Part shown: positions 12,110 through 48,100 of the stretch, one piece after another
Layout: every line of letters starts with the position of its first letter
Position numbering within the stretch: position 1 is the stretch's first letter
Source of the DNA: Chondrosia reniformis
Lineage: Eukaryota > Porifera > Demospongiae > Chondrillida > Chondrillidae
NCBI GenBank assembly: GCA_947172415.1
Contig: OX359190.1
Location: forward strand, 8,556,001 to 8,620,000
Reading direction: 5' to 3'
Length of the DNA: 64,000 bases
Notes under the pieces: generated by a model
Seen by the model: only the letters and a program-made list of their open reading frames with translations
What the model was told of the DNA's origin: nothing
Databases searched by the model: none
Made by a program: the position numbers and the translations under genes

Positions 12110-15100
12110 ATGCTTTGTTGGGGATCAAACACATACAAGCTGATACCTGTAGATTTTCATCAGATCACTAGGCCGGTGGAGTGTACATACTTCAAGTGAG
12201 AGATGACAAGATTTAGACTATTTATATTAAAGGCAATTGAAATTGAAAAGCAAATAGCTACCTACTACCTAATGGAAATTTAATAAGATTTTAGGCTAAT
12301 TATTACATGCGCAATACTATACTACTGTCATGTACTGTACCTGTGCTCAAGTAGTGTATTAATTATAATGCAATGTATGGGTTCATTTGTAGTTTGATGT
12401 AGTCCAATGTACTGATGTAATATGCTTTGTCTTCAGCAAGTGTGTATATTCTATGTTTTTAGTAATCATAAGATAGAGAATGTGGCCACGAGCGATTCGC
12501 TCTGTGTTGTGGTAACTAAGGATGGAATGGTTTACAAGTCAGGAAGGGAAGAGCATGAGCTAGGAACAGGGCAAGACTCCAATCACCCTGGTATTGTCTA
12601 AATGCATTACATGTCATGTAGTCATGCAGTCTCCTCTCTCTTGTTCTACCATACAGTCATGCTCCTATTTCTTCTTCTACCATACAGTCATGCTCCTATC
12701 TCTTGTTCTACCATACAGTCATGCTCCTATCTCTTGTTCTACCATACAGTCATGCTCCTATCTCTTGTTCTATCATACAGTCATGCTCCTATCTCTTGTT
12801 CTACCATACAGTCATGCTCCTATCTCTTGTTCTATCATACAGTCATGCTCCTATCTCTTCTTCTACCATACAGTCATGCTCCTATCTCTTGTTCTACCAT
12901 ACAGTCATACTCCTATCTCTTGTTCTACCATACAGTCATGCTCCTATCTCTTGTTCTATCATACAGTCATGCTCCTATCTCTTGTTCTACCATACAGTCA
13001 TGCAGTCTCCTATCTCTTGTTCTACCATACAGTCATACTCCTATCTCTTGTTCTACCATACAGTCATGCTCCTATCTCTTGTTCTACCATACAGTCATGC
13101 TCCTATCTCTTGTTCTACCATACAGTCATGCTCCTATCTCTTGTTCTACCATACAGTCATACTCCTATCTCTTGTTCTACCATACAGTCATGCTCCTATC
13201 TCTTGTTCTACCATACAGTCATGCTCCTATCTCTTGTTCTACCATACAGTCATGCTCCTATCTCTTGTTCTATCATACAGTCATGCTCCTATCTCTTGTT
13301 CTACCATACAGTCATGCAGTCTCCTATCTCTTGTTCTACCATACAGTCATGCAGTCTCCTATCTCTTGTTCTACCATACAGTCATGCAGTCTCCTATCTC
13401 TTGTTCTACCATACAGTCATACTCCTATCTCTTGTTCTACCATACAGTCATGCTCCTATCTCTTGTTCTACCATACAGTCATGCTCCTATCTCTTGTTCT
13501 ACCATACAGTCATGCTCCTATCTCTTGTTCTACCATACAGTCATGCAGTCTCCTATCTCTTGTTCTACCATGCAGTGTCAGTTGACATCTTCTCCACACT
13601 GTCAGTTCAGTCTGTAGCTTGTGGAAAGGACTACTCCATAGTGCTCACTCAAGCGGGACAGCTATACGGATGGGGGAGGAATGACCATGGTCAACTTGGA
13701 GTGGTGAACAGCTCTGCTAATTCTCTCATTACTAAACCAAAGTAATTACTGCATAGTACCAGGGTCATGCAGTCCTCCTGTTAATATACGTACATACGTA
13801 CATATGGGGATATGGTAACATATTTTTAGATTTCTTACTGTAGGGTATGTATTGAACTGAAATAGATTTCTTAAATTTTCTGCTTAATAGGTACATTGGT
13901 GCCTGGTGGCATCACGTTTGGTTACCATGGGATTGTCATTTAGTGGTGACATACGAAGTAGTCCCAATAGTTCATTATACTAGAAAAATCAATTCACATA
14001 GATAGGTTCTTCTTTGAGTTTTTTGAGAGTCTAAAACACGATTTGTTTTAATCTTCTTGCAATGCTTTGATCTCAGGAATCTTCTTCAGTGACTGGCGTT
14101 TGGAAGTCTGTTGCCTTTTAGGAATTAGTTCTGTAGACATTTCAGAGAAGAATTGTCTATAAAGAGGTAACAAAATTTCCTCCAGCAGCCATGCACTGAA
14201 AAAGGTTGAAACATCCAACAGATGATTAAATCAAAAATGTGTCTTTAGAGCCTCTATAAGCTCAGTAGATTCACCTAAAGATGCTTTTCAAGATGTTGAG
14301 TTGTTTTTGTAGGCAGATAAAGCAAGTTGGAAATGTTTCTGATAAAGTGATTCAAGTGAAAGGTGGACATTATCATGTGTTGGCAATGCTACAAGGTATG
14401 TACTGTATATCAATTGAATGTTCTCACAAGTCCCATCAAAGATCTGTTCTTTCCCTTCTCTATTGCTCCTCCCACCATCTCCTCCTCACTCCATTCCTCC
14501 CTCCTCCCTCCTCCCCCATTCCTCCCTCCCTCCTCCCCCCCATTCCTCCCTCCCTCCTCCCCCATTCCTCCTCCCTCCTCCCATCATTACCTCATCCTCC
14601 CTCCTCCCCCCATCCCTCCCTCCCTCCTCCCATCATTACCTCATCCTCCCTCCTCCCCCCATTCCTCCCTCCCTCCTACCCCCATTCCTCCCTCCCTCCT
14701 CCCTCATCCCTCCATGCCATCTATTCCTTGATCCCTCCTTCCCTAGATGGAACACTCTATGCTTGGGGTCTCAATTCCAGCGGTCAGCTCGGACTAGGAA
14801 ACCTCTCTGACAAGGAACCAGTACCTAAACTTGTATCACACCTTAAAGGGCTCCCTGTTGCCATGGTAGCTGCAGGAGGTAATCACAGCTTTGTATTGTC
14901 TCATTCAGGAGCAATTTATGGTTGGGGAAATAACAGGTATACTGAAATGAGTATTTTACCATCATTAATAGGGGGTGGATCTAGGGAACAAATAAATTGA
15001 GTTAAAAACTCGTGCATGAAGCTGCCACGAGTTATATACATATGCCATATATATATTATATACGTAGATATGTATATGTACGTAGTATAATCCCGTTATA

Positions 15101-18100
15101 GTGAAGCTCAATATAAAATGTTCCTTATATTGAATATTCACTATATTGAATGTATATACAAGTATACAACTTTTACTGGGGCTAGCAAAATACTTCACTA
15201 TACTGAGACATTTACTATAAGTGATCGTTGTAATGAGATTCTACTGATATACTTTTTATTTTTGTTTCCTGATTGTAGTCATGGTCAAGTTGGTGTCGGT
15301 TCTAGTGTGTCTGTTCTTCCTGTTCCGCAACTCCTAGAAACCTTAAGAAGCCTTGTACCTTCATTCATCAGCTGTGGAGATGACCATACTGCCATACTAA
15401 CTCAAGTATGTTTACAGACATCTAGCTGATATACTATATGACTATACTGTTAGGGCATACGTATACATAGCCGATATACTAGAACTTGTGGTTGATAGGG
15501 CAATTAATTAATTGCACGTAAAATAGTACATATTATGGCTGAAATAATAATTATTCCATATTCTGCCTTTATATTCTGGCTAAATACAGCAGTAACACTA
15601 CATTTTGACTATTTTAGAGTTTTTTCCTTATTTGGTCAGGATGGAGGTGTCTTCACATGTGGTGAGGGGTCCAAAGGTCAACTAGGCCATGGCTCACTTG
15701 GTAGTATATCCACCCCTAGGAAGGTTGCAGAGCTGATGGGGACAGTTGTCTCACAGATTGCCTGTGGAAGGTATACTTATACAAAACTATTTATATAATG
15801 ATGATATTAGAAGTAGGGATGCATATGGCAACAGTGACTAGCACATTGGAAAAAAGTAATGAAACAAGACAGTGATCAGAAATTAATGATGAATTATTGT
15901 ATAAATATGTAGATAATGTAACCCATGTCATAGTGTACGTATATACATATGAACGTACCTGAATGTACGTAAGTATATATGAGCCAAGGACTCACTACAG
16001 ATCAAAAAGAAGACAAAGTTTTCCAGGGTCACTGATGAAGGGTGGAATTCCCAGAAACAGCTGTCTGGCCTAGTGGAGAAGAAGAGAAGAAGGAAAAACT
16101 CTTGTATCCTCATCCAAAGCTCTTACTTGGTTTAGTTCCCTAAAGGCCTTTTACTCTAAAGTAGATATAACATGTAAGAAATATGGAGTATTACATTATG
16201 TACATACAGTAGGAGTGTATCTGAACATACGTACAAATCAGTCCTGTCCTTGTTTGCTGGTGCAGCTCACATACTCTAATTCTTGAGCAAACCTCTGGTA
16301 AAGTTTGCTCATTTGGGAGTGCTACTCAGGGACAACTGGGAGGCGAACCTTTGGAGAATCAGGCCACGCCCACTAGGATCAAAGGTGTGCAATGGAGTCC
16401 CAGCTATGGTTCTCCGGTGGACTCCAATACAGTAGTTGTGCAGAAGCTACTTGCTAGTGGAAATAACTCTTTTGTCATCAAAGTCACTGATGTAAGTTTT
16501 TTGAATAGTGATGACCATAATTTAACATTGAATTGTTCCTTGTACGTACTTTTGTAATGTAGATTCTATAATCAATAAATAACTTCTGCATATTGTTTAC
16601 TACAAATATATAAATGCTACTATTCTTGAAATTGCTTAAAATTAAGGCATTTGGCTACTTTTATTTTGGTAATTTTACTGACAAGACAGTTGTTGTTTGG
16701 TGTAGTTTGGCAGTTGAAATATTGGATGGTTCATCTTTTCATAATTTTGAGTGTCTAAAGATGCAGTTTTTGTTCTTTGTTCTGTCGGACGTTTCGACCC
16801 TGGGGGTCTTCTTCAATCATGATCATCTATTAGTTGAAATATTGGTGGATTGCTCTCAAAGCCAGCAATCTGCCACATATAAGTTCACGCCAAAATTTCT
16901 TGCTATACAATATAATACATACGTACAACCTGTCATGTTTGCATACGCATAGAAAGGTTCCTGTCTTTCTTTGTCAGGTTAATGATGAGGTCTCAGATCA
17001 CAGATACTTTAAGGGTGTTTCCCTCCCATTTCACATCACAAGTGAAGAGGTGAAATCAATTTGGGAAACAGTTAGTAAAGCTACCACTATTGAAAAATTT
17101 AAAAGGTACATATTACCTACGTATTACCTACGTATATTTTGTAATGGAGATTTCTACATACGTACGTTCGTACGTACAGGTATGTATAAACTGATTAGAG
17201 ATTTAATTTGTGTACCAACTACAGGTATTGCGAGTTGGTCTTTCAATCCTTGAGTAGCTTCAATGCCTCTTTCTTGAGCAGGTAAGTTTATATGTAAACA
17301 CCATTTTACCATCTTCTTAGAGATATGGTTGACATCAATAGGAAGCTGAGGAATTTATATTTGTCTTATTGCAGCACTCATCACTTAACCAACGAGAGAA
17401 ACCCTGGAATTAGCTCTGAAGCTGTGACTTGTTTCTCAAAAGTTTTATTGGCTGTGATCTCAGAAAAGGATTTGGAGCAAAAGGTGATTTACTAATTGTC
17501 ATATACGTAGAGTCTTAAAACCTCGTACTACAATGTTAATACTACATAAAGTAGTGGCTAATGAACACTGTATAAGAGAAAGTACTGCACTTCTAATCCA
17601 TACAATCACTACTTTTTGCTGTGGTTTGACAATTTCAAACATTTAAAGAGTAGACTATTGTTGAAGACAGAATAACCTTGAAACATCTTACCTAATATAA
17701 TGAACAGTATCTTCAGGCATTGAGGTGCTCAGATTAATGGTTCAACCTTATAATTCTACTTTTAAAGCATTTTCATCCTAACCACTCACAAGACATTGAA
17801 AGATTAACAATTTCAAATTTAACACATTTTGAGACATCCTAACTTCATTTCGGTCCTTTCATTCCCATTGTGTAGATGTGTACCTGGTTTAACCAGTTAT
17901 TGTCCAAGGTTTCAGTCCAGTTGGTAGACATTGAGTGTATGAGGGTCTACTGGTCCAGCAGTGTCTTAATGATCAGCCTCCCGTACCAGGAGAGATTAAG
18001 CCTCATTCTACAGCCTCTTACAACTTTCAGTAAGAGTATTATCCAACAAGACAAGGCAATGCTGAAGGTGTTTGGTGAGCTGTGATCTTTGAAGAATATG

Positions 18101-21100
18101 AAAATCTTCATTCTGAATCTACAATTTCATATTTAAATCTGTAATTAGGACGTTGGTTGGTAAACAATGAGAAAGAACACTTCAAAGCCTTGGTTGCCAT
18201 GTGTGTCCATACGCTAAACAGTGTTATTAAGGAGTTGTACAATCTTAAAAAGGTAGCATATGAATTCTATGTATTGTGTAATGTGTTCGTTTATTGGAAA
18301 ATTTAAATATAGTAAATACTGTAACTGTATGATTTTGTTTGGGACTAAAATTTTATGGTTGATTTTTTTTTCGAGATTCATTCCTTCCAGCCTTACTGCT
18401 GCAGTCAGCCAGGTTCCATTGTATACTAATCTATACTAAGAGCATGAGGCTTCACTGCATTCTCTCACACACACATTTCCTGTTTTTGTTCATTTCTTGT
18501 TTTGCTTTGATCTGCTCAACCTAGAAAAATGTAAAAGTTGAGAAATGGAGAATTGACCCAAAGTCAGCTAGATTTGATGTCCTCTACAGTGCCTTGACAA
18601 ACATACTTCTCTTAACAGACAAACTGAAGGAGGTTAGTAAAACTTTATGAATACTTATACTGAAATTGGAGTAGTTCTCAAAATAGGTGTAACATCCAAC
18701 TATTCGTACGTATGTTTGTATATACTTGATACTATATGTACAGTATGCTGACAGAATATACGTACGTACGTACGTAGTTAATATTTGAACAATTAAAATA
18801 TAAGATTACGTATTTATATGGAATGATGTGGATTTAGTAACTGGAAGTATGACATTAGTAACAGTTAGATATATGTGTAGTGGCAGCCTTATCGTAGAAA
18901 ATTTAGGAACCTCTGATCTAACTTCAAATTTACACTACGTATATTTCTAATATACGTAGGGCCTCATTGCTATGTACGTATATACGTACGTAGATAAACT
19001 TTATAACATTTTTTGAGCTGGTTTTAAAGTAATAGTAGAAAAACTGTCACTCTAGCTAGTAAGGAAACATTAATACTTTTTCTTTTAAAATTACATGATG
19101 TAATTAAATGGTTGTGGTTTACAATTGTAGTTTATCTGTATGCATACATACCTCTTGTTGCTATACAGTGGAATACTGATGAAGCGGGTAGTGACAGGGT
19201 AATCTCCTACCGTTCCTTCTATCTGTCAAGCATCCAGGACAGGGTCAACTTCATTGAGGATTATATTATATGGAAGAACAAAGAGGTAACTTGTACATAC
19301 GTACATATCCAATTAGATTTACCAGCAAAGTAGCTTTAAATAATCACTTTTGTTGGATTGATCCATCGAAATTTAAACTTTCAGACTTCTACAAGTTAAC
19401 TGCTAGTATATATATATGTCTTAACTGATGTCTTCTAACATGCTATCATAAGCAGCCAAGCAGATCCACTTTTTAACACTTTTTAATCTGCCAAAATTGA
19501 AATGCGTATGCATGAATGCATGAAACTGGTTGTCAGAGTTCTCTTACTCTCACTACCGAATCCGAATGTGGAGGATTCAGTGAGATGCAAGAGCACAAAT
19601 AGCTGCATATGGTGTTTCCATCTAGTGAAGTAATTGAATATTTAAAAGTACTGTCTCTTCTCCTCTTCTCCATTTTGTTTAGGCTGGCAAGCTAACCTAC
19701 TGTCATCACCCTCACACACTTGACGCTGCCTGCAAGGCTACTCTGATGGAGGTGGAGTCTGTCATTACCATGGAGGTAACCCCACCCCTAGCCCCACAGG
19801 CATTTTGTTACCATGGAGGTAACCCCACCCCTAGCCCCACAGGCATTTTGTTACCATGGAGGTAACCCCACCCCTAGCCCCACATGCATTTTGTTACCAT
19901 GGAGGTAACCCCACCCCTAGCCCCTCATGCATTTTGTTACCATAGAGGTAACCCCACCCCTAGCCCCACAGGCATTTTGTTACCATGGAGGTAACCCCAC
20001 CCCTAGCCCCACAGGCATTTTTAAGGCTTCACTTAGTACATACGTAGGTTTCATTGTTAGAGTATCTAAATTTCCTACTGCAGTCACCTATTTATGAGTT
20101 TCTGTACAATTTGTTCTTTAAGACATGTTTTCATCCGGTACATGTGTATTAATTATGATAGCTACACTTCACTACATATTTGTATATCTCTGCTACAATT
20201 AAAATGTCTCCCTTACAATTATTATTGTCCACAGGCTTTCAATCACACAGAACGGATCGGGCCAGGTTTAATTCCGCCCAACATCACACCTGGCCCTTAT
20301 CTCCACATTCACGTTAGTCGGGAGCACATTCTACGTGACTCTATGATAGCCTTGAAGGATCTTCACAGAATTGAGCTCAAAAAACGACTGAGAGTTAGCT
20401 TTATTGGAGAGGAAGGAGATGACGAGGGAGGGTTGAGAAAGGTAAACCAAATGCATTAGCTGACTGTATATCATGATAATTTAGTAAAGTACTCTTGGAC
20501 CAATTGATCACTTGTGAGTTTGAGAGGTTAACTGATGTAATTTTGATATATTGTAACTTTTTATGTTGGTTGTTATGTAGATTGGCTTAAAGTAAACCAA
20601 ATGCATTAGCTGACTGTATCTACTAGATTGGGCACTAATATTAACAGGAATGTCTATGCTTATGTGATCATAATCTATTTGAGTACTTTCTTTGTCTCTA
20701 GGAATTCTTTATGCTGGTGATTCAAGAACTGATGAATCCTCAGTACGGTCTTTTTGTTGAAGATGAAGAATCACACATGATTTGGTTCAGTGACAGTCTG
20801 GCTCACCTCAACTCAAAAGACGACAATATGAACTACTTCCTGGCAGGCCTCATCTGCGGCCTTGCAATCTATAATTATGTTGCTATAGACCTGCCCTTTC
20901 CCTCTGCTCTCTATAAGATGTTGATAGGAAGGTACATACGTAGGTATAGGTAATCACCTGTTTGGTGTAAAGTATGTGATTTCATGCTAATTGTTTATAG
21001 TAGAGTTTTGTTCTTTTGATTGCTAATTAACATATTTGTTGAAATCAAACTCATATGAGTCTGGAATTCCCAGACATCTCCGATCTGGTTTCCTCTATGT

Positions 21101-23636
21101 AGGGCCTATCTTCTACTATGTAGGACATTATACCAGCTACCACGTAATATAGCATTGCACTGCACTATGCTTCTTAGTGAAACAATTACGTATTTGGTTG
21201 GTAGGGATTTCTTCTAACTGCACCAAACTTATCTTTGAGGTAGTTCATCTTTAGTCTTTTGAGCAGCTAGAAATGCAGTCATTGAAGAAGACCCCCAGGG
21301 TCGAAATGTCTCATTCTGCAGAAAACAAGCTACGTATGTCTCTAGATGCTCAAAAGACCAAAGATGAACCATCTAAAAGAGAAACAAATCTAGTGTGATT
21401 AATAATCGATCAGCCATAAGTACGTATGTATATGCAGCCTTCAAATGATCTGTGACTTTAATGCTGTTCACCTCAGGCACATGGTCTATCAAGACTTGGC
21501 AGAGCTGAAGCCTTCGCTTGCTAGTGGCTTTCAGGCAGTACTAGACTATAATGGAGATGATATTCAGAGAGACTTAGATCTTACCTTTGAAATTTGCAAA
21601 CATGCTTTCGGACAAAGTGTCAAGCATTGCTTAGTTCCCAATGGAGACAAAATTCCTGTTACTATGGAAAACAGGTGAGAATTGTCTGAACTACAACTAT
21701 AATTGCTTCCTGAAAGCCATCATAAAGAAGTAATTACAATACAGCTCTTTTACCACTTTTGTCTCCTCTAATTAATGATTACGTATTTAACAGATTCTCT
21801 CTACAAAAATATCGCAAGGAGGACTGAATACAGTATGGAAACAACTTTAGGGGGCAACCCAGTTTAATGGCTTGCTTGCTATTAAAAATTGGCAATTTGA
21901 TCTTCTTTAAGTTGGGTAGGCAAAATATTTTCAAGGTGGGGGGAGGGGGGGATGCCCACAACTCCATAAAATATACCCTGTTTAATAATGTTTAATTTAG
22001 ACAGAACAATTATACATTTTATGTGTAGTACGTGTATTTTTAGTGCTTTATATCAACTTCAAATCAGATTGTAAATTGCTGTATGTTAATACCTGTGAAT
22101 TCCACCTGACACTAAGAGCAGTGTACAGTAGATGTGCATGTAGAGTATCGATCATGAGACTCTTTCTTCTCCTGTTATGCATAGGGGAGACTATGTTTCC
22201 GCTTATCTGAAGTACACTCTGTACGATTGTGTGGAGGCCTCTTTTGAGTCTTTTAAAGATGGATTTCTTAAGGTGTACGACAGTCACCTTCTGACACTCT
22301 GCCACCACGAGGAACTCAAGGCAATGGTTATCGGAGAGAGATTTATAGATTTTAAAGCCTTAGAAGAGGTAGGTATCAACGAACCATAAATGATATACTG
22401 TAAATCCCTTATTAGCGTGCTTTTAAATTTAGCTATATTAGCAATTTGACATTTACTGCTAAAATTATATTTCACTAAATATAGTACATTACTACAAAAT
22501 AGAGTACTACTGTAATTATTTATTACTGTAATTAACTAACAAAACTTCCATGCATTTTATAAGTCGCTAATATTAAATTCCACTATGTAGGGGTAAAATC
22601 CAGTTTCACTAACTTTTGGTTCCGCTTAAATAAAGGGATTTACAGTATGTAGCCACAGTTGACCCACACTTATATAACTGCAAAGTATATGTAGCCATGT
22701 ATGGCTGAATAATGCAATCTCTGAATTCATGAAACTAAATGGAAAAATAGGATTAATAATACTCAAGGTGTTGGTTTTAGACTCTTAGAAGTGATAGGTA
22801 TTAATGTACCATAAAAAATCTAGCCACAAATGATCCTCTCTTAATCAAACAACTTTCTACAGTATGGCTGTGACAGTTGTATCATAAGGACAGCTACTGA
22901 CAGCTTCATCTGGTAACCAGAGTGTGTCTTTGTTGTGGTTTAATGATTTCTGCATGTATCTAGGCATTTACAGCTCTTTGAACATTTTACATAGTTCCTC
23001 CTGACTTACGTAGATAACAGAATATCGCAATGGATACAGCAAATATCATCCTGTTATTGAAGCATTTTGGAAAACATTGCATGAATTTCCACAAGAAGCG
23101 AAAAGAAAATTTCTTGGTACTGTTTTAATATATACATAAATTGTATGATATTATTGTATTTACATATAAATATAATCATTCGTATATCGGTATACATCAA
23201 GTATACATCTTTACATCTCCATTTCCTTGATTTTTCACTGACACAGCTTTCCTAACAGGAAGTGACAGAATATCAATTGGAGGGATGAAGTACTTGAATG
23301 TAAGTGGGGACTACCTCAGTTAGTTTCTTAGAATGCAGTACGCTTCTTCTATAATTTATGTACGTATATTAGGTTGTTATTCAAAGAACACATGGTGGTG
23401 AAGGCTGTCAGAACCTGCCTGTTGCTCACACATGTTTTATCGTGCTGGATCTACCTCCTTATCCCAATGGAATCATGATGAAAGAGGTAATGAATCACAT
23501 TTTGATTTTTGATTAATTATTATTAATCTCTATCAGGGTGTGCTGGTTACTGGTTGTATTATCAATTAATCTTTTCTGTTTTTTATAGAAATTACTGCAA
23601 GCAATTTATTTTACTCAAGGCTTTGGACTTCTTTAG
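12110..23636 (+). CDS. HERC4: HERC3/4-type E3 ubiquitin ligase (RCC1-like domain + HECT), 24 coding exons
   Basis: HECT ligases take ubiquitin from an E2 onto a catalytic cysteine and pass it to substrates. Exons: 12110-12195, 12463-12590, 13576-13741, 14313-14395, 14747-14936, 15279-15405, 15640-15770, 16266-16491, 16978-17105, 17225-17281, 17375-17483, 17876-18074, 18149-18252, 18525-18632, 19169-19285, 19683-19775, 20235-20441, 20702-20931, 21477-21674, 22185-22368, 23014-23116, 23247-23299, 23373-23486, 23589-23636. Phases close; 3189 nt, 1062 aa (vertebrate HERC4 is about 1057). Residues 1 to ~379 are RCC1-type blades (MLCWGSN start, LYGWGRNDHGQLG, LYAWGLNSSGQLGLG, GGVFTCGEGSKGQLGHG, VCSFGSATQGQLGG). 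The first blade lacks the GQLG motif. A helical middle follows, then HECT from ~720: FIGEEGDDEGGLRKEFF, MIWFS, GLICGLAIYN, TGSDRI. The catalytic cysteine is Cys1030 in LPVAHTCF, 32 residues from the end as in HERC4, and the -4 Phe is kept (GFGLL). Assignment to HERC4 rather than HERC3 is by length and overall similarity. Confidence 0.95.
12619..13575 (+). repeat. 31/35-bp minisatellite carrying the HERC intron 2 splice acceptor
   Basis: About 30 units filling intron 2. Each reads CTCCTATCTCTTGTTCTACC ATACAG then TCATG (31 bp, or 35 bp with an extra GCAGT). Each unit is a pyrimidine tract plus CAG, the form of a 3' splice site. The true acceptor of exon 3 (ending at 13575, ...TACCATGCAG) is the last unit with one base changed. 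Three long plus-strand open frames across the array are artefacts. Confidence 0.95.
14466..14740 (+). repeat. C/T-rich tract before HERC exon 5
   Basis: About 275 bp of CCTCCCTCCTCCCCC-type sequence, almost pure pyrimidine on the transcribed-sense strand, ending just before the acceptor of exon 5 (14746). It looks like an overgrown polypyrimidine tract. Open frames in it are low-complexity artefacts. Confidence 0.85.
15087..15245. mobile_element. Putative pogo-like MITE in HERC intron 5
   Basis: The left end TAATCCCGTTATAGTGAAG and the reverse complement of the right end (CAGTAGAATCTCATTACAAC) are imperfect inverted ends similar to the element at 61452-61879. About 160 bp, no coding capacity. 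Confidence 0.45.
15808..15882 (+). mobile_element. Fragment related to the foldback element of JNK intron 6
   Basis: TAGAAGTAGGGATGCATATG, then CAACAGTGACTAGCACAT and AAGTAATGAAACAAGACAGT, parallels one palindrome arm (4050-4110) with substitutions. A solo diverged half-arm in HERC intron 7. Confidence 0.6.
15970..16186 (+). repeat. R1 dispersed repeat, copy 4
   Basis: Forward copy in HERC intron 7, from GAGCCAAGGACTCACTACAG to ATAACATGTAAGAAA, with internal deletions relative to 51062-51312. Confidence 0.75.
16725..16822 (+). mobile_element. R3 element copy (partial)
   Basis: GATGGTTCATCTTTTCATAA starts it, and the internal CGTTTCGACCCTGGGGGTCT is shared with 21237-21375. The far terminal repeat is missing or diverged. 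In HERC intron 8. Confidence 0.55.
19765..20020 (+). repeat. 43-bp minisatellite carrying the HERC exon 16 donor
   Basis: Six near-identical 43-bp units starting at 19765, 19808, 19851, 19894, 19937 and 19980. The first unit contains the last 11 nt of exon 16 (TTACCATGGAG) and its donor GTAACC. Every later unit repeats that donor and also holds CCCCTAGCCCCACAG, an acceptor-like string, so each unit could define a 19-nt pseudo-exon. Confidence 0.95.
20442..20619 (+). repeat. Duplicated intron 17 start
   Basis: The first 27 nt of intron 17 (GTAAACCAAATGCATTAGCT then GACTGTAT) recur at 20592-20619 without the exon sequence before them. A short direct duplication of a donor region. Confidence 0.7.
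21237..21375. mobile_element. R3 TIR element (MITE-like)
   Basis: Left end GTAGTTCATCTTTAGTCTTT and the right end, which reverse-complements to GATGGTTCATCTTTGGTCTT, form ~30-bp inverted repeats around a core containing GACCCCCAGGGTCGAAATG. About 140 bp, no ORF. In HERC intron 18. Confidence 0.75.
22394..22648. mobile_element. MITE with perfect 16-bp terminal inverted repeats
   Basis: ATACTGTAAATCCCTT at 22394-22409 is the exact reverse complement of 22633-22648. The AT-rich interior has no ORF. In HERC intron 20. Confidence 0.8.
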
Positions 23637-24180: not shown

Positions 24181-25009
24181 ATTAATGTATGGTGAGAGAT
24201 AGGGCAAATTTTAAAATTTCAAAAACTCATGATCATTGGACATGCTCTATAGGTGTCTGTGAATGCTGACACAAAGTGTTAGCTTCATATCTCTCCATTT
24301 GATAGAGTTACAGCCATCAATGTACATTAAATCCTGGTATACAAAGTATGGAGAGATATAGGCAAATTTTTTTTAAGTTTCATCAAAATTTCAAAAACTA
24401 GTTGGACATACTCTATAGGTGCCTGTGAATGCTGACACAAAGTATATTTGCTTCATATCTTTCTGTTTGATAGAGTTACAGCCATCAATGTACAATAATA
24501 TATTCTAGTATACAATACATGCAAAGTTAATGTATGGTGAGAGATAGGGCAAATTTTTAGTTCCATCAAAATTTTAAAAACTCATTGATCATACTTAATA
24601 GATGTCTGTGAATGCTGACACAAAGTGTTAGCTTCATATCTCTCCATTTGATAGAGTTACAGCCATCAATGTACATTAATTCCTGGTATACAAAAGTTAA
24701 TGTATGGTGAGAGATAAGGCAAATTTTAAGTTCCATCAAAATTTCAAAAACTCATTGGACATACTCTATAGGTGCCTGTGAATTCTGATACAAAGTATTT
24801 GCTTCATATCTTTCTGTTTGATAGAGTTACAGCCCTCAATGTACATTAAATTCTGGTATACAAAGTTAATGTATTGTGAGAGATATATGGGGCAAATTTT
24901 TTAAGTTTCATCAAAATTTCAAAAACTCATTGGACATACTCTATAGGTGCCTGTGAATGTTGACACAAAGTCACAACTTCATATCTTTCCATTTGATAGA
25001 GTTACAGAA

Positions 25010-26150
25010 CTCTAGTTAATGTACTGTATTGTTAGTGAAAATTGCGTAATACCATATATGGCCGACCGTTAGAAGGTGATGTAAAGACAACATTCGATAC
25101 TATATCCGAAAATCTAGAATACTTTCTAAATTTTATTATACACTGGGATATGCACTGTGTAGTAATTGATTGTTATTGAAGCACTATCTATCCATATTTA
25201 ATATATGGATCCGGTTAAAGTGAAATTTCGTCAATCGACAGCCAACGAAACTCCAAAGAAAAAAAGTTGGACCATACCGAACGCTACCATCCACGACGCT
25301 CAGAGGCCGGGATCGGTGGTAACGCTCTGCCGAGTTGAGCTTTGGGTGTCACTTGCGTGAGAAGAACCAGTTCTTCTCGATATGGCCGACTCATATGAAT
25401 CCTAAGATATCAGATGCCAATCCCACATTACGTGGAACCCCCCCGAAATCCGGATTATTGGTGAGCACGTCTCTATGGCACCAACCGATTAGGAGACAGC
25501 TTCAGAGTCTAAGCGCTACCAACCTCTATGGGAACCGCAACCACCATAGAGATGTGTCCAGGTAGGCCTACTATATAAGGTTTTTCGCTTCTATTTATAT
25601 GAAGTTTTGTCCAAAGAAAACGGTTGTGGTTGGGGCTTTTTTTATATATTTCTCGTTATTTCCAGATCAGTGAATTGTTCCAAGCAAGTTTAAAGACATA
25701 GTCAGTATTAGTGGTTCATCTGAAAACTGGGAAAAGCGGAAAAATTCCTGTAAGTGTCTTGATGGGCCGAGGAGAACGACTTTTCTGATCCCAATTATTT
25801 TCGAGAAATCGTCAATTTATTCCACTCTAATTCTAGACCAGTGAATCGTTCCGAGCAATTTTACACACATACGCAGTATTTCCAACACATCTCAAAACTG
25901 TGGCAAATGGATAAAAGCCTGTATGTGTCTTAGTGGAGGAAGGAGAGCGACTTTTCACGATACGGCAAACTAGAGATAGTGCGAGGTCCGATATTTATCG
26001 CTAGTACGATATTAATGTCTATGATCGATATTTCAACTTGGCCGGCTGTATTAATTCTAAGTCTAATTCCTAATTCAAGAGAGAATCATGTATTGATAAA
26101 ATATAGCTAAATAATGGTTTAAAAGCAAATGTAGCTCCAAAAAATACAAA
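25010..26150 (+). repeat. Non-satellite block, copy 1, with two short ORFs
   Basis: A 1.1 kb segment of higher complexity and CpG content inside the satellite. It holds a 51-codon ATG ORF at 25205-25360 (MDPVKVKFRQ..., lysine-rich KKK at 18-20) and an overlapping open frame at 25335-25565 without an ATG. The second frame reaches a donor-like CCAG|GTAGGC (25561/25562), and an acceptor-like TTATTTCCAG ends near 25667. This suggests a captured gene or transposon fragment with remnants of exon structure. No family recognised. Confidence 0.7.
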
Positions 26151-29100
26151 TGTACGGTGAGTGAGATAGGGCACATTTTAAGTTCCATCAAAATTTCAAA
26201 AATCCATTAGACATGCTCTATAGATGTCTGTGAATGCTGACACAAAGTGTTAGCTTCATATCTCTCGATTTGATAGAGTTACAGCCATCAATGTACATTA
26301 AAATCTGGTATACAAGGTTAATGTATGGTGAGAGATAGGCAAAATTTAAAATTTCAAAAACCCCTTAAACATACTCTATAGATGTCTGTGAATGCTGACA
26401 AAAGGTTTAGCTTCATATCTTTACTTTTGATAGAGTTACGGCCCTCAAATTCTGGTATACAAAGTTAAGTTGGTATACCATAATTTAATGTACATTTAGG
26501 GCTGTAACTCTGTCAAATGGAATATGAAGCTAATACTTGGTGTCAGCATTTACAGACAACTATAAAGTATGTCCAATGAGTTTTTGTAATTTTGAAGTAT
26601 ATATATACGTGCGTCAATATTTGCCCTATATATCTCTCACCATACATTAATGTATGGTGAGAGATAGGGCAAATTTTAAAATTTCAAAAACTCATGATCA
26701 TTGGACATGCTCTATAAATGGCTGTGAATGCTGACACAAAGTGTTAGCTTCATATCTCTCCATTTGATAGAGTTACAGCCATCAATGTACATTAAATCCT
26801 GGTACAAAGTATGGTGAGAGATAGGGCAAATTTTAAGTTCCATCATAATTTCAAAAACTAGTTGGACATACTCTATAGGTGCCTGTGAATTCTGATACAA
26901 AGTATGAGCTTCATATCTCTCCATTTGATAGAGTTACAGCCCTCAATGTACAATAATATATTCTAGTATACATACAAAGTTAATGTATGGCTAGAGATAG
27001 GGCAAATTTTTAGTTCCATCAAAATTTTAAAAACTCATTGATCATGCTTAATGGATGTCTGTGAATGCTGACACAAAGTGCAATATATCTCCCCTTTTGA
27101 TAGAGTTACAGCCATCAATGTACATTAAATCCTGGTATACAAAAGTTAATGTATTGTGAGAGATAGGGCAAATTTTAAGTTCCATCAAAATTTCAAAAAC
27201 TCATTGGACATACTCTATAGATGTCTGTGAATTCTGATACAAAGTATGAGCTTCATATCTCTCCATTTGATAGAGTTACAGCCCTCAATGTACAATAATA
27301 TATTCTAGTATACAGTACATACAAAGTTAATGTATTGTGAGAGATAGGGCAAATTTTTAGTTCCATCAAAATTTTAAAAACTCATTGATCATGCTTAATA
27401 GATGTCTGTGAATGCTGACACAAAGTGTTAGCTTTCATATCTCTCCATTTGATAGAGTTACAGCCATCAATGTACATTAAATTCTGGTATACAAAGTTAA
27501 TGTATGGTGAGAGATAAGGCAAATTTTTTAAGTTTCATCAAAATTTCAAAAACTAGTTGGACATACTCTATAGGTGCCTGTGAATGCTGACACAAAGTAT
27601 TTGCTTCATATCTTTCTGTTTTATAGGGTGACAGCCCTCAATGTACATTAAATTCTGGTATATAAAAGTTAATGTATGGTGAGAGATAGGGCAATTTTTT
27701 TTAAGTTTCATCAAAATTTCAAAAACTAGTTGGACATACTCTATATGTGCCTGTGAATGCTGACACAAAGTATTTGCTTCATATCTTTCTGTTTGATAGA
27801 GTTACAGCCCTCAATGTACATTAAATCCTGGTATACAAAGTTAATGTATGGTGAGAGATAAGGCAAATTTTTTAAGTTTCATCAAAATTTTAAAAACTAG
27901 TTGGACATACTCTATAGGTGTCTGTGAATGCTGACACAAAGTATTTGCTTCATATCTTTCTGTTTGATAGAGTTACAGCCATCAATGTACATTAAATCCT
28001 GGTATACAAAAGTTAATGTATGGCGAGAGATAGGGCAAATTTTAAGTTTCATCAAAATTTCAAAAACTCATTGGACATACTCTATAGGTGTCTGTGAATG
28101 CTGACACAAAGTATTTGCTTCATATCTTTCTGTTTGATAGAGTGACAGCCCTCAATGTATATTACATTCTGGTATACAAAGTTAATGTATGGAGAGATAT
28201 ATGGGGCAAATTTTTTAAGTTTCATCAAAATTTCAAAAACTCATTGGACATACTCTATAGGTGCCTGTGAATGCTGACACAAAGTATTTGCTTCATATCT
28301 TTCTGTTTTATAGGGTGACAGCCCTCAATGTACATTAAATTCTGGTATATAAAAGTTAATGTATTGTGAGAGATAGGGCAATTTTTTTTAAGTTTCATCA
28401 AAATTTCAAAAACTAGTTGGACATACTCTATATGTGTCTGTGAATGCTGACACAAAGTATTTGCTTCATATCTTTCTGTTTGATAGAGTTACAGCCCTCA
28501 ATGTACATTAAATCCTGGTATACAAAAGTTAATGTATGGCGAGAGATAGGGCAAATTTTAAGTTTCATCAAAATTTCAAAAACTCATTGGACATACTCTA
28601 TAGGTGTCTGTGAATGCTGACACAAAGTATTTGCTTCATATCTTTCTGTTTGATAGAGTGACAGCCCTCAATGTATATTACATTCTGGTATACAAAGTTA
28701 ATGTATGGAGAGATATATGGGGCAAATGTTTTAAGTTTCATCAAAATTTCAAAAACTCATTGGACATATATACTCTATAGGTGCCTGTGAATGCTGACAC
28801 AAAGTATTTGCTTCATATCTTTCTGTTTGATAGAGTTACAGCCCTCAATGTACATTAAATCCTGGTATACAAAAGTTAATGTATGGTGAGAGATAGGGCC
28901 AATTTTAAGTTCTAGCAAAATTTCAAAAACTCATTGGACATACTCTATAGGTGTCTGTGAATGCTGACACAAAGTATTTGCTTCATATCTCTCCATTTGA
29001 TAGAGTTACAGCCCTCAATGTACAATAATATATTCTAGTATACAGTACATACAAAGTTAATGTATTGTGAGAGATAGGGCAAATTTTTAGTTCCATCAAA

Positions 29101-32100: not shown

Positions 32101-32667
32101 GAGCTTCATATCTCTCCATTTGATAGAGTTACAGCCCTCAATGTACAATAATATATTCTAGTATATATACAGTACATACAAAGTTAATGTATTGTGAGAG
32201 ATAGGGCAAATTTTTTAAGTTTCATCAAAATTTTAAAAACTCATTGATCATGCTTAATAGATGTCTGTGAATGCTGACACAAAGTGTTAGCTTCATATCT
32301 CTCCATTTGATAGAGTTACAGCCATCAATGTACATTAAATTCTGGTATACAAAGTTAATGTATGGTGAGATATAAGGCAATTTTAAGTTTCATCAAAATT
32401 TCAAAAACTAGTTGGACATACTCTATAGGTGCCTGTGAATGCTGACACAAAGTATTTGCTTCATATCTTTCTGTTTGATAGAGTTACAGCCCTCAATGTA
32501 CATTAAATTCTGGTATACAAAGTTAATGTATTGTGAGAGATATATGGGGCAAATTTTTTAAGTTTCATCAAAATTTCAAAAACTCATTGGACATACTCTA
32601 TAGGTGCCTGTGAATGTTGACACAAAGTCACAACTTCATATCTTTCCATTTGATAGAGTTACAGAAC

Positions 32668-33808
32668 TCTAGTTAATGTACTGTATTGCTAGTGAAAATT
32701 GCGTAATACCATATATGGCCGACCGTTAGAAGGTGTATGTAAAGACAACATTCGATACTATATCCGAAAATCTAGAATACTTTCTAAATTTTATTATACA
32801 CTGGGATATGCACTGTGTAGTAATTGATTGTTATTGAAGCACTATCTATCCATATTTAATATATGGATCCGGTTAAAGTGAAATTTCGTCAATCGACAGC
32901 CAACGAAACTCCAAAGAAAAAAAGTTGGACCATACCGAACGCTACCATCCACGACGCTCAGAGGCCGGGATCGGTGGTAACGCTCTGCCGAGTTGAGCTT
33001 TGGGTGTCACTTGCGTGAGAAGAACCAGTTCTTCTCGATATGGCCGACTCATATGAATCCTAAGATATCAGATGCCAATCCCACATTACGTGGAACCCCC
33101 CCGAAATCCGGATTATTGGTGAGCACGTCTCTATGGCACCAACCGATTAGGAGACAGCTTCAGAGTCTAAGCGCTACCAACCTCTATGGGAACCGCAACC
33201 ACCATAGAGATGTGTCCAGGTAGGCCTACTATATAAGGTTTTTCGCTTCTATTTATATGAAGTTTTGTCCAAAGAAAACGGTTGTGGTTGGGGCTTTTTT
33301 TATATATTTCTCGTTATTTCCAGATCAGTGAATTGTTCCAAGCAAGTTTAAAGACATAGTCAGTATTAGTGGTTCATCTGAAAACTGGGAAAAGCGGAAA
33401 AATTCCTGTAAGTGTCTTGATGGGCCGAGGAGAACGACTTTTCTGATCCCAATTATTTTCGAGAAATCGTCAATTTATTCCACTCTAATTCTAGACCAGT
33501 GAATCGTTCCGAGCAATTTTACACACATACGCAGTATTTCCAATACATCTCAAAACTGTGGCAAATGGATAAAAGCCTGTATGTGTCTTAGTGGAGGAAG
33601 GAGAGCGACTTTTCACGATACGGCAAACTAGAGATAGTGCGAGGTCCGATATTTATCGCTAGTACGATATTAATGTCTATGATCGATATTTCAACTTGGC
33701 CGGCTGTATTAATTCTAAGTCTAATTCCTAATTCAAGAGAGAATCATGTATTGATAAAATATAGCTAAATAATGGTTTAAAAGCAAATGTAGCTCCAAAA
33801 AATACAAA
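32668..33808 (+). repeat. Non-satellite block, copy 2
   Basis: Near-identical to 25010-26150, shifted by 7658 bp, with one extra T near 32733 and very few substitutions. The 51-codon ORF (32863-33018) and the second frame (32993-33223) are intact. Confidence 0.85.
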
Positions 33809-35323
33809 TGTACGGTGAGTGAGATAGGGCACATTTTAAGTTCCATCAAAATTTCAAAAATCCATTAGACATGCTCTATAGATGTCTGTGAATGTTGACA
33901 CAAAGTGTTAGTTTCATATCTCTCGATTTGATAGAGTTACAGCCCTCAATGTACATTAAATCCTGGTATACAAGGTTAATGTATGGTGAGAGATAGGGCA
34001 AAATTTAAGTTTCATCAAAATTTCAAAAACTCATTAATCATGCTTAATAGATGTCTGTGAATGCTGACACAAAGTGTTAGCTTCATATATCTCCCCTTTT
34101 GATAGAGTTACAGCCCTCAATGTACATTAAATCCTGGTATACAAAAGTTAATGTATGGTGAGAGATAGGGCAAATTTTAAATTCTAGCAAAATTTCAAAA
34201 ACTCATTGGACATACTCTGTAGGTGTCTGTGAATGCTGACACAAAGTATTTGCTTCATATCTTTCTGTTTGATAGAGTGACAGCCCTCAATGTATATTAC
34301 ATTCTGGTATACAATGTTAATGTATTGTGAGAGATATAGGCAAATTTTTTAAGTTTCATCAAAATTTCAAAAACTCATTGGACATACTCTATAGGTGCCT
34401 GTGAATGCTGACACACAGTATTTGCTTCATATCTTTCTGTTTGATAGAGTTACAGCCCTCAATGTACATTAAATCCTGGTATACAAAAGTTAATGTATGG
34501 TGAGAGATAGGGCAAATTTTAAATTCTAGCAAAATTTCAAAAACTCATTGGACATACTCTATAGGTGTCTGTGAATGCTGACACAAAGTATTTGCTTCAT
34601 ATCTTTCTGTTTGATAGAGTGACAGCCCTCAATGTATATTACATTCTGGTATACAAAGTTAATGTATGGTGAGAGATAGGGCAAATTTTTAGTTCCATCA
34701 AAATTTTAAAAACTCATTGATCATGCTTAATAGATGTCTGTGAATGCTGATACAAAGTGTTAGCTTCATATCTCTCCATTTGATAGAGTTACAGCCCTCA
34801 ATGTACAATAATATATTCTAGTATACATACAAAGTTAATGTATGGCTAGAGATAGGGCAAATTTTTAGTTCCATCAAAATTTTAAAAACTCATTGATCAT
34901 GCTTAATGGATGTCTGTGAATGCTGACACAAAGTGTTAGCTTCATATATATATCTCCCCCTTTGATAGAGTTACAGCCATCAATGTACATTAATTCCTGG
35001 TATACAAAAGTTAATGTATGGTGAGAGATAAGGCAAATTTTAAGTTCCATCAAAATTTCAAAAACTCATTGGACATACTCTATAGGTGCCTGTGAATTCT
35101 GATACAAAGTATTTGCTTCATATCTTTCTGTTTGATAGAGTTACAGCCCTCAATGTACATTAAATTCTGGTATACAAAGTTAATGTATTGTGAGAGATAT
35201 ATGGGGCAAATTTTTTAAGTTTCATCAAAATTTCAAAAACTCATTGGACATACTCTATAGGTGCCTGTGAATGTTGACACAAAGTCACAACTTCATATCT
35301 TTCCATTTGATAGAGTTACAGAA

Positions 35324-36464
35324 CTCTAGTTAATGTACTGTATTGTTAGTGAAAATTGCGTAATACCATATATGGCCGACCGTTAGAAGGTGATGTAAAG
35401 ACAACATTCGATACTATATCCGAAAATCTAGAATACTTTCTAAATTTTATTATACACTGGGATATGCACTGTGTAGTAATTGATTGTTATTGAAGCACTA
35501 TCTATCCATATTTAATATATGGATCCGGTTAAAGTGAAATTTCGTCAATCGACAGCCAACGAAACTCCAAAGAAAAAAAGTTGGACCATACCGAACGCTA
35601 CCATCCACGACGCTCAGAGGCCGGGATCGGTGGTAACGCTCTGCCGAGTTGAGCTTTGGGTGTCACTTGCGTGAGAAGAACCAGTTCTTCTCGATATGGC
35701 CGACTCATATGAATCCTAAGATATCAGATGCCAATCCCACATTACGTGGAACCCCCCCGAAATCCGGATTATTGGTGAGCACGTCTCTATGGCACCAACC
35801 GATTAGGAGACAGCTTCAGAGTCTAAGCGCTACCAACCTCTATGGGAACCGCAACCACCATAGAGATGTGTCCAGGTAGGCCTACTATATAAGGTTTTTC
35901 GCTTCTATTTATATGAAGTTTTGTCCAAAGAAAACGGTTGTGGTTGGGGCTTTTTTTATATATTTCTCGTTATTTCCAGATCAGTGAATTGTTCCAAGCA
36001 AGTTTAAAGACATAGTCAGTATTAGTGGTTCATCTGAAAACTGGGAAAAGCGGAAAAATTCCTGTAAGTGTCTTGATGGGCCGAGGAGAACGACTTTTCT
36101 GATCCCAATTATTTTCGAGAAATCGTCAATTTATTCCACTCTAATTCTAGACCAGTGAATCGTTCCGAGCAATTTTACACACATACGCAGTATTTCCAAC
36201 ACATCTCAAAACTGTGGCAAATGGATAAAAGCCTGTATGTGTCTTAGTGGAGGAAGGAGAGCGACTTTTCACGATACGGCAAACTAGAGATAGTGCGAGG
36301 TCCGATATTTATCGCTAGTACGATATTAATGTCTATGATCGATATTTCAACTTGGCCGGCTGTATTAATTCTAAGTCTAATTCCTAATTCAAGAGAGAAT
36401 CATGTATTGATAAAATATAGCTAAATAATGGTTTAAAAGCAAATGTAGCTCCAAAAAATACAAA
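35324..36464 (+). repeat. Non-satellite block, copy 3
   Basis: Near-identical to copy 1, shifted by about 10,314 bp. The similarity extends into flanking satellite on both sides (about 24.66-26.61 kb against 34.97-36.92 kb), so copies 1 and 3 belong to one segmental duplication. ORFs at 35519-35674 and 35649-35879. Confidence 0.85.
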
Positions 36465-37111
36465 TGTACGGTGAGTGAGATAGGGCACATTTTAAGTTCC
36501 ATCAAAATTTCAAAAATCCATTAGACATGCTCTATAGATGTCTGTGAATGCTGACACAAAGTGTTAGCTTCATATCTCTCGATTTGATAGAGTTACAGCC
36601 ATCAATGTACATTAAAATCTGGTATACAAGGTTAATGTATGGTGAGAGATAGGGCAAAATTTAAAATTTCAAAAACCCCTTAAACATACTCTATAGATGT
36701 CTGTGAATGCTGACAAAAGGTTTAGCTTCATATCTTTACTTTTGATAGAGTTACGGCCCTCAAATTCTGGTATACAAAGTTAAGTTGGTATACCATAATT
36801 TAATGTACATTTAGGGCTGTAACTCTGTCAAATGGAATATGAAGCTAATACTTGGTGTCAGCATTTACAGACAACTATAAAGTATGTCCAATGAGTTTTT
36901 GAAATTTTGAAGTATGTCAATAACGTAGACCTTTAAGAAAGCTCATGCATGTTAAAAGAACCATTTAACGTTGGCTAGCATTTTACGAGTGATCGAATTT
37001 CAATAGATGTGGTATGTTAAAAATGGTATTTTCAGATTATATATATATAATACGGATTTGTGTCTTCTCCTAGATGTCTATAAATGTACATAAATCTACT
37101 CATGTGTGTGA

Positions 37112-39104: not shown

Positions 39105-39650
39105 AACAGTTCTGTCAAACCTTATATGGCGCTGAGACCTGGGCATGCAGCAATCAAGCATCTCATTAGAAGGCTGAAGAGATGCCTTCTGACATACATT
39201 TTAGGTGGGACCTTGTGCTCTATGGGATATGCACTGTAATAATATATATTGACATATTGGAGGAGACTGGGAAGATATATACTGATAGAACAACAGTTAA
39301 ATCACTGATAAAGATCCTTGGGTCAAAACTTTAGACCAAGAGATTCATGTGATTTTAGATGCTCAAAGAGTTGAAAGATGTAACCTCCAAAAGATGATAA
39401 CAATAAGGCAAAGGAGGCTCTCCAGTGGTTCAGACACCTGATGGAAGAGGATGCCAGACAATCATCCACAGAGGAAGAGGATGCCAGACAATCATCCACA
39501 GAGGAAGAGGATGCCAGACAATCATCCACAGAGGAAGAGGATGCCAGACAATCATCCACAGAAGCAGCTCCTATGGTGCAGACTGAAAGGAAAGAAGAAG
39601 AAGCCATCTTTGTGTTGGATGGACCTCACTAACAGAAGATCTACATAGCT
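39105..39650 (+). mobile_element. Degenerate non-LTR retrotransposon 3' end (endonuclease-reverse transcriptase type)
   Basis: Frame-broken remnants match the C-terminal landmarks of RTE/CR1-like ORF2 proteins: LYGAETWAC at about 39120, LIRRLKRCLLTYILGG, LQWFRHLM, then MPDNHPQ and KQLLWCRLKGKKKK. Stops and frame shifts separate the pieces. Family placement beyond non-LTR retrotransposon is uncertain. The MPDNHPQ segment has been amplified (see the repeat at 39441-39565). Confidence 0.6.
39441..39565 (+). repeat. 30-bp in-frame repeat inside the retrotransposon relic
   Basis: Four copies of a 30-bp unit (GAGGAAGAGGATGCCAGACA plus ATCATCCACA), a multiple of three, so MPDNHPQRKR repeats in one frame and EEEDARQSST in another. 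Confidence 0.9.
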
Positions 39651-44915: not shown

Positions 44916-44917
44916 CA

Positions 44918-45027: not shown

Positions 45028-45179
45028 AAACATAATATGCATTGGTATATACAGAGAGATTAATCACATTCAACAACAAATGCAATCATTATATATATTT
45101 ACATGATAACCAATCAATATCAAGAGTCCCAACTCTATGTGAGAATATTTGGTAGCATGAAAGATATCATTGGACAATC

Positions 45180-48100
45180 TTACTGAAGTGATTTTAAATC
45201 TTCAATGCTGCTTTCAGATTGGTAGATAATCATGAGGCTGCCTGTGCTGGCTGACCTCACCCTCCCACTTCTCTTCCCTAATCTGTCAATCCTCTCGTGT
45301 TCCTCTTCAGAGTCAAACCAAGTAGAGTCATTCTCAATTACTGAAGGATTCAACTCAGATTGGGTGGGACGAGAGGGAAATCGAAGGTATGGACCAATTG
45401 GTATTCCTTCACTCCGCTGAGTTTCACTGTCCGTGGACCATGTCTGCTTGTGGTATGTTGCAAAAGGTGGAAGCTGATCCTGAAACTTTTGTCTGTGCAT
45501 TGAACATAAAAAATGAAGTGCATAAAATTAGTTTATCAACATCATATTGAAATTTACACATATACGTAAATATCCAGTCAAAAAAAGGAAGAACAAGTAA
45601 TTTAAGTATTCTGAGTTTAAAAACTCGTGGGGCTACCGCACCCCGCACTCAAACTACTTGGCCGCTTCTTTGGGATTTAATATATATATTCTTAATCTTA
45701 ATGATTGAGGACGCTTAGGTGTCCTGAACATTCTAAATAATGACAAAAAAGCTTCGTAACTAAAGCTTCCTGAACGCTGCCGCTCATGGGGCTGTCCCCA
45801 CACTCAAATTACTTAGCCACTTTATTGAACTTATATATTGTGGTAATCTAAACGATAGGTCCCTATAAAGCACTACACAAAAATGTACACTTTACACTGG
45901 TTCTCACTTAAACGATCTTCTGATAGTGTGAGTTCTAGAGCTCCCTGCAAGGTCCTCGACTGATCGACTTATGTGGTGACGAGGTTTCTGGGGGTACGTA
46001 TTCTCTTCATCGCTACTCAATTCAGGAGAGATAGTCTTGAATGACTTCCCTGTAGCTGATGCATACATAGTGCATATAAAGTGAACGGAGGCATGAATGT
46101 ACATAATTCTAATTGTGATAGAAATAATCATAGGGAGATATTACACCTGACCAACCAAGTGACCAAAGTCTGATCTTGGTTGGGAGACTGAAGTCCTATT
46201 GATTGGCAACCAGTGATTATTGCTATCACATCATAGTTTTTTTACAATTCTAACTGTATGTCATATGGAACAGAATGAAATTAAAATATGCAATAGTCTC
46301 AGTGGTTATCAGTACTGATTTGGTAGCTTGTGAAAACATAATTTTACTGCACTGAAGCAGAAATGGTAGTGCTCTAGTATAGAATGTTTGAAACTGTTTG
46401 TTTAACTATAAGATGAGGTTCTATTGACAATACATGAGCAATCAAGGGAAATCAAACCACAAACAATCACAGACAAGCATTAAGTAGGTAAAAATAATTT
46501 TAGCTGGGAATTGACCCAAAGAAAGATGGTCTCAACCATCAGCGACTTGTGTTACACCAAGCATTACAAAATTCATCTCTCATTGACAAGCTCATTCTCA
46601 CCAGTAAAAGGAAAAGGAACGTCTGACAAGTGCTGTTCAGAAATAATTGAGTTTGGACTGCTTTCTCCTCCATGACTTGCAAAGGACTGATTCCTCTCAA
46701 CTTGAGTATTGTGAGTGTCGTCATTGGGGCTGGCCATGACACCACTTTCCACAGAAGATATGCTCTCTTGTTTCTGAACACCACTCTTGACTTTACCATT
46801 CTGATTACCAGAAGAGAACGGCAAATCCTTGCGTTTTGAATTATTCAACTTATTGCTTCCTCTTAAGCCAGCACTAGCCCTCCAGGGGGTGGGGTGGGGG
46901 AGGGTTTGCCACTTTTTAGCATCAACACGCTCTCCACGTTTAAGGGAACTCCCCTTAGCAGTTGCTGGCCTATTAAAACTGATGGCAGATTGTGCTCCAC
47001 TTGCCTGTCTAGAATCATGTGAACTAACTGGTGAATGAGGACGATATACTCCCAAGAACCTTTCATTCATATCCTGTACTCCATTATGCATGCAAAGATA
47101 TAAAAATACGTAATGTAGATACAGTAGTTAAATATCCTGTACTCCATTATGCATGCAAGGAAATAAAAATACGTATTGTAGATACAGTAGTTAAATATCC
47201 TGTACTCCATTATGCATGCAAGGAAATAAAAATACGTACTGCAGATACAGTAGTTAAATTAAGCCAAAAAGTTATATGTAGTTGAGAGATTAAAGTATCA
47301 CTACGTACATGTATGTAGAAAGGTATTATACAGTACATCCTATATGCATGGATATGCACACTACGCTTTATATAAAACCAATACATACTCTAGTACATTA
47401 TCAAACATTAAACGTATACGTACAAATGTACTGTGCTGTATACAATCGACAGTCAAATGAGTGCATATATGTAACAGGGCTGTACCAGTATCAGAGACAT
47501 GGTCAGGAAATAAGCTTATTGTGCAATGCAACTAAATAATCCTAGTCTGGAAAAAGGGGAATTTTAATGATGACGAAATCCTAGTCCCTAAAATCTAGCT
47601 AATAAGTGGAGAATGTTTTTTAAGAGTAAACCTTTCAAAAAACATTTGACAGACTATCCAAGATTGAAATGGAATTACTAAGAGCTAATTCTTACATTTG
47701 ACAGACTATCCAAGATTGAAATGGAATTACTAAGAGCTAATTCTTACATTTGACAGACTATTCAAGATTGAAATGGAATTACTAAGAGCTAATTCTTACA
47801 TTTGACAGACTATCCAAGATTGAAATGGAATTACTAAGAGCTAATTCTTACATTTGACAGACTATCCACACTCTTTGGTCGACTGATAAGATGAGGTGGC
47901 GAGTCTGAAGATTCAGAGGTATCCATGGTAACACCAACTGACGGTTGAGTGAGCTCAGCTGTTGTACTACCATCACCACTTTCAACAGTCTCCAAAAAGT
48001 TGGTTTCACTGTAATCTGGTCTCAAGGGTGTTATAGGTGTAAAGAATTCTCTACTTGCCAGGAAGCTATCGTGACTAGCAACTCTTCTATGGCGGCCAAT

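Follow-up and report, generated by a model that had tools for sequence, protein, structure and literature searches.

Minisatellite arrays at splice junctions in two genes of the demosponge Chondrosia reniformis

A 64,000-nt stretch on contig 2 of the genome of the demosponge Chondrosia reniformis (the window in what follows) carries four minisatellites at splice junctions, two in a HERC4-like gene on the plus strand and two in a gene on the minus strand. The initial annotation of this DNA had pointed to four such arrays in two genes, and Tandem Repeats Finder (TRF) calls for the window, taken together with the gene models, bear this out: three arrays contain the junction, while the fourth, with a 31-bp unit, ends one base past it. 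Their main copies carry splice sites about as strong as the one used (quantiles 0.37-0.87 of the predicted real sites), and in all four arrays the copy that keeps the reading frame in the gene models of the window is the exon-most one. Such arrays recur elsewhere in the genome at a low rate, arrays inside exons are rare, and no excess at junctions was observed. We estimate at about 0.7 the probability that these are minisatellites of the so-called mirage type, in which near-random tandem duplication falls over a junction, is hidden by splicing and lengthens the intron.

The junctions discussed here are predicted, and some of the predicted exons are false, among them exons called in satellites and mobile elements. 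The gene finder was self-trained, over the window as well, and its seeds included the exons of the HERC4-like gene but not those of the minus-strand gene; for the former it therefore gives no independent support. Splice sites were scored with matrices built from predicted sites.

Acceptor and donor arrays in the HERC4-like gene

The HERC4-like gene (12110..22368, plus strand) was modelled with 20 exons encoding 957 residues free of stops, the C-terminal end lying outside the model. The protein has an RCC1-like domain and a HECT domain according to Pfam (WD40_RLD, 1.3e-74; RCC1; HECT, 1.6e-44), and the best homologues among the matches listed cover 100% of the 957-residue query. Intron 2 (12591..13575, plus strand) consists nearly entirely of the 31-bp minisatellite, which has 29.9 copies (12631..13576, plus strand) and whose unit is a pyrimidine-rich stretch followed by a CAG acceptor. 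The modelled 3' splice site is that of the last copy, at 13575/13576 on the plus strand. Only one exonic base is shared with the neighbouring copy; therefore the array ends one base past the junction, and it is a borderline member of the mirage class. Its 30 main acceptors lie at quantiles 0.49-0.68 of the predicted real acceptors, the last, modelled one being the highest.

The choice of this last copy appears to be supported by homology as well as by frame. Seven homologues, one of them from the sponge Ephydatia muelleri, align over the join of exons 2 and 3, and none has an insert there; a gap lies alongside the join in one homologue (P0018). These alignments also bear on the possibility that the arrays are functional, with redundant splice sites regulating isoforms, the 31-bp array being partially exonised and the AG|GT motifs of a second, 43-bp array serving as recursive sites. 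The 31-bp array speaks for it with its 30 similar acceptors; 10 of the 29 upstream ones are in frame and stop-free and would insert 22 to 296 residues, the other 19 leading to stops. However, in a pyrimidine-rich unit that runs through 31 codons per cycle stop-freedom would be unsurprising, and the absence of an insert from all seven homologues at this place argues in the same direction. A separate observation in this gene concerns a CCTCC-rich array at 14481-14713, which ends some 33 bp upstream of the exon 5 acceptor (14746/14747), resembles an overlong pyrimidine tract and has one frame open throughout.

The 43-bp minisatellite (19765..20021, plus strand; 6.0 copies) lies at the donor of exon 16. 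Its unit comprises the last 11 bases of that exon and the donor GGAG|GTAACC; the modelled junction is at 19775/19776 on the plus strand, and the 11 exonic bases are shared with the next copy. All six donors are equally strong, at quantile 0.87 of the predicted real sites, and each of the five alternative donors leads to a stop, which weighs against a function in isoform choice. The join of exons 16 and 17 (19775/20235) lies between the invariant residues M683 and A685, again with an insert in none of seven homologues. At this join the HERC4-like protein has one residue fewer than each of the seven (M-E-A against M-x-x-A). The loss coincides exactly with the array-borne donor at 19775, and no link to the array is claimed. 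At the donor of exon 17 (20442) a single extra copy is found 150 bp downstream (about 20592), a non-array duplication of a junction.

Recursive splice points consist of an AG|GT motif that serves both as donor and as acceptor. In the five downstream copies of the 43-bp unit, GGAG|GTAACC has an acceptor score of 3.97-4.61, where the median of predicted real acceptors is 3.96, and a donor score of 5.57. An acceptor-like CCCCACAG|G is also present in four of the six copies, and together with the next donor it could bound a microexon of 19 nt. Against recursive splicing stands the repeat length itself, as an intron of 43 nt would be short. The AG|GT of this unit sits at a pre-existing junction, and in the other three arrays no AGGT is present at the site used. 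Taken together with the stops met in the minus-strand gene, these data make a functional role for the arrays improbable in our judgement. We are similarly sceptical of a bolder version in which the 31-bp array would be a self-amplifying 3' splice site whose slippage alters the repertoire of protein lengths, the 43-bp array a series of tandem recursive points, and demosponges tolerant of perhaps hundreds of junction arrays. According to the first-AG scanning rule for 3' splice sites, choosing the last of 30 near-identical sites would run counter to expectation.

One intron with an array at each end

In the minus-strand gene, the intron at 47074-47851 carries one array at each end. The upstream exon (47852..48231, minus strand; gene finder score 31.0) is in frame with the downstream exon (46602..47073, minus strand; score 48.0). 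At the donor, TCAAAT|GTAAGA, lies a 52-bp minisatellite of 4.4 copies (47642..47868, minus strand), and at the acceptor, GAGTACAG|GATAT, a 63-bp minisatellite of 3.0 copies (47069..47259, minus strand), with the modelled junctions at 47852/47851 and 47074/47073, respectively. In the 52-bp array 17 exonic bases recur in the neighbouring copy, and in the 63-bp array 5; with the 11 bases of the 43-bp array this means that these three arrays truly contain their junctions. Both junctions of this intron are predicted from frame continuity and an ab initio gene finder. No homologue and no Pfam family was found for the product at E<=0.001; by eye, it resembles a coiled coil.

In the 52-bp array the four main donors are equal in strength (quantile 0.61 of predicted real sites), and so are the three main acceptors in the 63-bp array (quantile 0.37), which has one other, stronger acceptor-like site (0.73). 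All three alternative donors and all three alternative acceptors tested lead to stops. The splice-site redundancy proposed in the initial annotation thus holds at the level of sequence and fails at the level of translation in three of the four window arrays, where every alternative site tested gives a stop; productive redundancy is likely to be limited to the 31-bp array at most. Other minisatellites of this gene lie in introns clear of junctions, at 51971-52757 (22 bp, 35.8 copies) and 53074-53199 (27 bp, 4.6 copies).

Recurrence and distribution of junction arrays

For comparison we used 25 segments of 10 kb each (the preset loci), taken from contigs 1 to 10 at round coordinates fixed beforehand; they are not a random draw and together represent 0.2% of the genome (117.4 Mb, 15 contigs). 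Tandem repeats including satellites make up 20% of the window and between 0.3% and 78% of the preset loci. Junctions of exons scoring at least 5 were tested for junction-spanning 18-mers with a local copy, and hits were called firm when kept after inspection by eye. Of 604 predicted junctions in the preset loci, eight gave a hit and two were kept, that is 0.33% (95% interval 0.04-1.19%), so junction arrays recur beyond the window, at a low rate, as the initial annotation had supposed. The first firm case (locus L021, position 583) is a 31-bp acceptor array of 5.4 copies before an exon of a POLG-like gene. From its second residue onwards this exon matches DNA polymerase gamma, and the single in-frame alternative that was tested there contains stops. 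The second (L009, 2590) is a 34-bp acceptor duplication of 2.2 copies in another gene, with 13 exonic bases shared.

The other six hits in the preset loci were not counted as firm. L009 5752 and L009 8572 involve satellite-like copies spaced by about 170 bp, L016 1469 has a single copy that lies on the exon side, L021 6836 falls inside a stop-free frame of 687 codons, L024 1132 is TG-rich, and L029 8235 is a repeat inside a stop-free frame of 816 codons. The window gave five hits, of which three were kept; the 31-bp junction was missed by the criterion and was added by hand. The two discarded window hits were 20442, with its separate copy 150 bp off, and 39562. The latter closes a group of four 30-bp copies, 100% identical (39443-39562), with a gene-finder acceptor at its end and a weak exon (score 5.4).

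Errors of assembly, in copy number or in the presence of the arrays as such, are very improbable, given that the copies of the 31-bp array can be told apart by their variants and that like arrays occur at independent loci.

The initial annotation expected junctions to be enriched in arrays, and a corresponding explanation would be that tandem duplication has its preferred sites at junctions, for instance through transcription-linked breaks or the pyrimidine tract, leading to a directed, genome-wide redundancy of splice sites. Four junction arrays in one window speak for this. The local-copy rate, on the other hand, is lower at the junction than in the interior of the intron. In the preset loci, 20-mers with a local copy were found at 1/604 and 0/604 positions 40 and 20 nt into the exon, at 7/604 junctions, at 5/604, 9/604 and 11/602 positions 10, 20 and 40 nt into the intron, and deeper in the intron at 15/595 (150 nt) and 24/594 (200 nt), which corresponds to rates of about 0 in the exon, 1.2% at the junction and 2.5-4% in the intron interior. 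The difference between the junction and 150 nt is not significant (Fisher p 0.088, or 0.137 at exon score >=10), so the junction deficit in the preset loci is suggestive only. The window exhibits the same gradient at a higher level, with 2/163 at the junction against 15/162 (Fisher p 0.001; second test 0.006), and the gradient is alike for donors and acceptors analysed apart, the window included.

The number of arrays reaching into exons was compared, for arrays of period 8-120, with a seeding model that places the first duplicated unit randomly within or across an intron. Twelve of 49 intronic arrays overlapped an exon before inspection, against 10.65 expected (sd 2.36), and in the preset loci alone the overlap was 7/33 against 7.87 (sd 1.95). 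The raw count is thus explained by random seeding, and the two firm cases among 604 junctions at the preset loci also argue against preferred sites. Arrays wholly inside exons numbered four in about 85.7 kb, some window exons being counted twice, and three of the four had a period of 9; the 49 intronic arrays lie in 111 kb of intron. The raw overlaps not regarded as firm were L013 7234, L016 1973, L021 6826, L024 1130, L029 7907 and window 39443.

Several results fit less well with near-random duplication sheltered by splicing. In the window 5/16 arrays overlap an exon against 2.78 expected (sd 1.34), a mild excess which favours preferred sites, in a window that was chosen for its junction arrays. 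In the other direction, the firm counts fall short of the seeding model, by about 2 sd overall (6/49) and by about 3 sd in the preset loci (2/33, with 7.87 expected, sd 1.95), which makes strict neutrality doubtful. The exonic share is less than 40% of the unit in all six firm cases, a less even spread than under uniform seeding. The outcome also depends on the null model. With arrays held strictly inside introns, 13/51 reach a junction against 2.17 expected (tolerance 0; 0/1000 shuffles as high), the strongest figure for preferred sites; we set this null aside as unfair because it forbids overlap by construction. With arrays allowed to spill half into exons, 19.92 are expected and the observed 13 fall short (as low in 0.009 of shuffles). 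The seeding model is intermediate between these two and is the mechanistic one. Overall, enrichment at junctions was not seen in this small sample and is not supported, and we regard preferred duplication at junctions as an unlikely explanation.

Some further repeats and features were observed in the same material. Very long 13-bp arrays of 112 to 235 copies are placed in introns at L018 2442-5476, L019 511-2015 and L031 5981-7392, and in-frame 9-bp repeats occur in predicted exons at L025 1343, 3773 and 8859, with collagen-like frames near the first and the third. The window contains satellite arrays of about 170 bp at 24522-36900 with a higher-order period of 342-344 bp, interleaved with predicted exons of identical score (25221-26089, 32879-33718 and 35535-36403), and a 169-bp array is also present in L009. 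An Rfam scan of the window at gathering thresholds gave no match, and a tRNA scan of the window found none. COX1 on contig 15 has eight in-frame TGA codons and was read with code 4; its top match, at 93% identity, is a cluster with the name Demospongiae, and named cnidarians come to 89%, in line with a demosponge host.

Relation to known systems and significance

The sponge arrays are of the kind previously known from amphioxus as mirages, and the notion that the phenomenon is little described does not stand beside that work and that on introns born by tandem duplication. As described in PMC3087553, the mirages of amphioxus Adh3, BflGb6 and BflGb9 are tandem duplications that resemble minisatellites and cover exon/intron boundaries, 5' as well as 3'; many of their units retain AG/GT, and splicing is apparently unaffected. 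The same work reports length polymorphism and instability, gives support from RT-PCR (reverse transcription polymerase chain reaction) and proposes mirages as a source of new introns (PMC3087553). The sponge arrays with 43-, 52- and 63-bp units likewise span the boundary with exonic bases, the 31-bp array being borderline, and both types of boundary are hit in the window, with two donor and two acceptor arrays. Their units of 31-63 bp compare with 10-72 bp in Adh3 and about 150-160 bp in the globins, as given in PMC3087553. In contrast to the amphioxus cases, they are found in a different phylum and one of them reaches 30 copies; and where the mirages have length-polymorphism and RT-PCR data, the sponge arrays are known from the sequence of a single assembly. 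In a limited search of the open-access literature, no earlier sponge case of junction minisatellites was found.

The tandem-duplication model of intron gain from AGGT, as presented in PMC4974935, is exemplified by fission yeast SPOG_01682/SOCG_00815, vertebrate ATP2A1 and the potato RdRp gene; in fission yeast a 24-bp repeat in multiple copies is crossed by the intron over several copies, and in potato the intron arose by duplication of an intron-exon segment (PMC4974935). The sponge arrays resemble these cases in that duplication supplies ready-made splice signals, and the 43-bp unit holds an AGGT. They differ in that the end of an existing intron is duplicated and the intron grows, with no new intron shown. 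Human intronic variable number tandem repeats (VNTRs), such as that in intron 18 of ABCA7, are also minisatellites within an intron of a coding gene; the comparison is by description only, and the partial description available does not place a junction inside the repeat unit. Introner copies carry splice sites. Introners, too, are intron-linked repeats (PMC9860276), but are dispersed over many genes. A dispersed element of this sort is not supported for the 31-bp unit, the one of the four window units covered by the search: all 12 matches in a whole-genome DNA search, which omits very common words, were at its own locus.

We propose that local tandem duplication, probably by slippage or unequal exchange, strikes this repeat-rich demosponge genome approximately at random. 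Where the first duplicated segment by chance spans an exon/intron junction, each extra copy would bring its own splice site. The extra copies would fall inside the intron because the frame-keeping transcript joins the exon-most copy; the coding sequence would then be unchanged, and the array could grow much like any intronic array, making the intron longer unit by unit. Use of the exon-most copy may be enforced by the spliceosome through exon definition, or by decay of faulty transcripts. Growth of this kind would be close to neutral, with some junction duplications probably purged. The initial annotation suggested that the process is ongoing, and the 95-98% TRF match between copies makes this plausible.

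The sponge arrays take the mirage phenomenon beyond amphioxus, to a demosponge, and come with a rough estimate of its rate and a null model. Whether splicing shelters duplications at the ends of introns, and so allows introns to grow, can now be tested in any repeat-rich genome. The acceptor array of 30 copies is a natural setting for testing how the spliceosome picks one 3' splice site out of many that are nearly identical.

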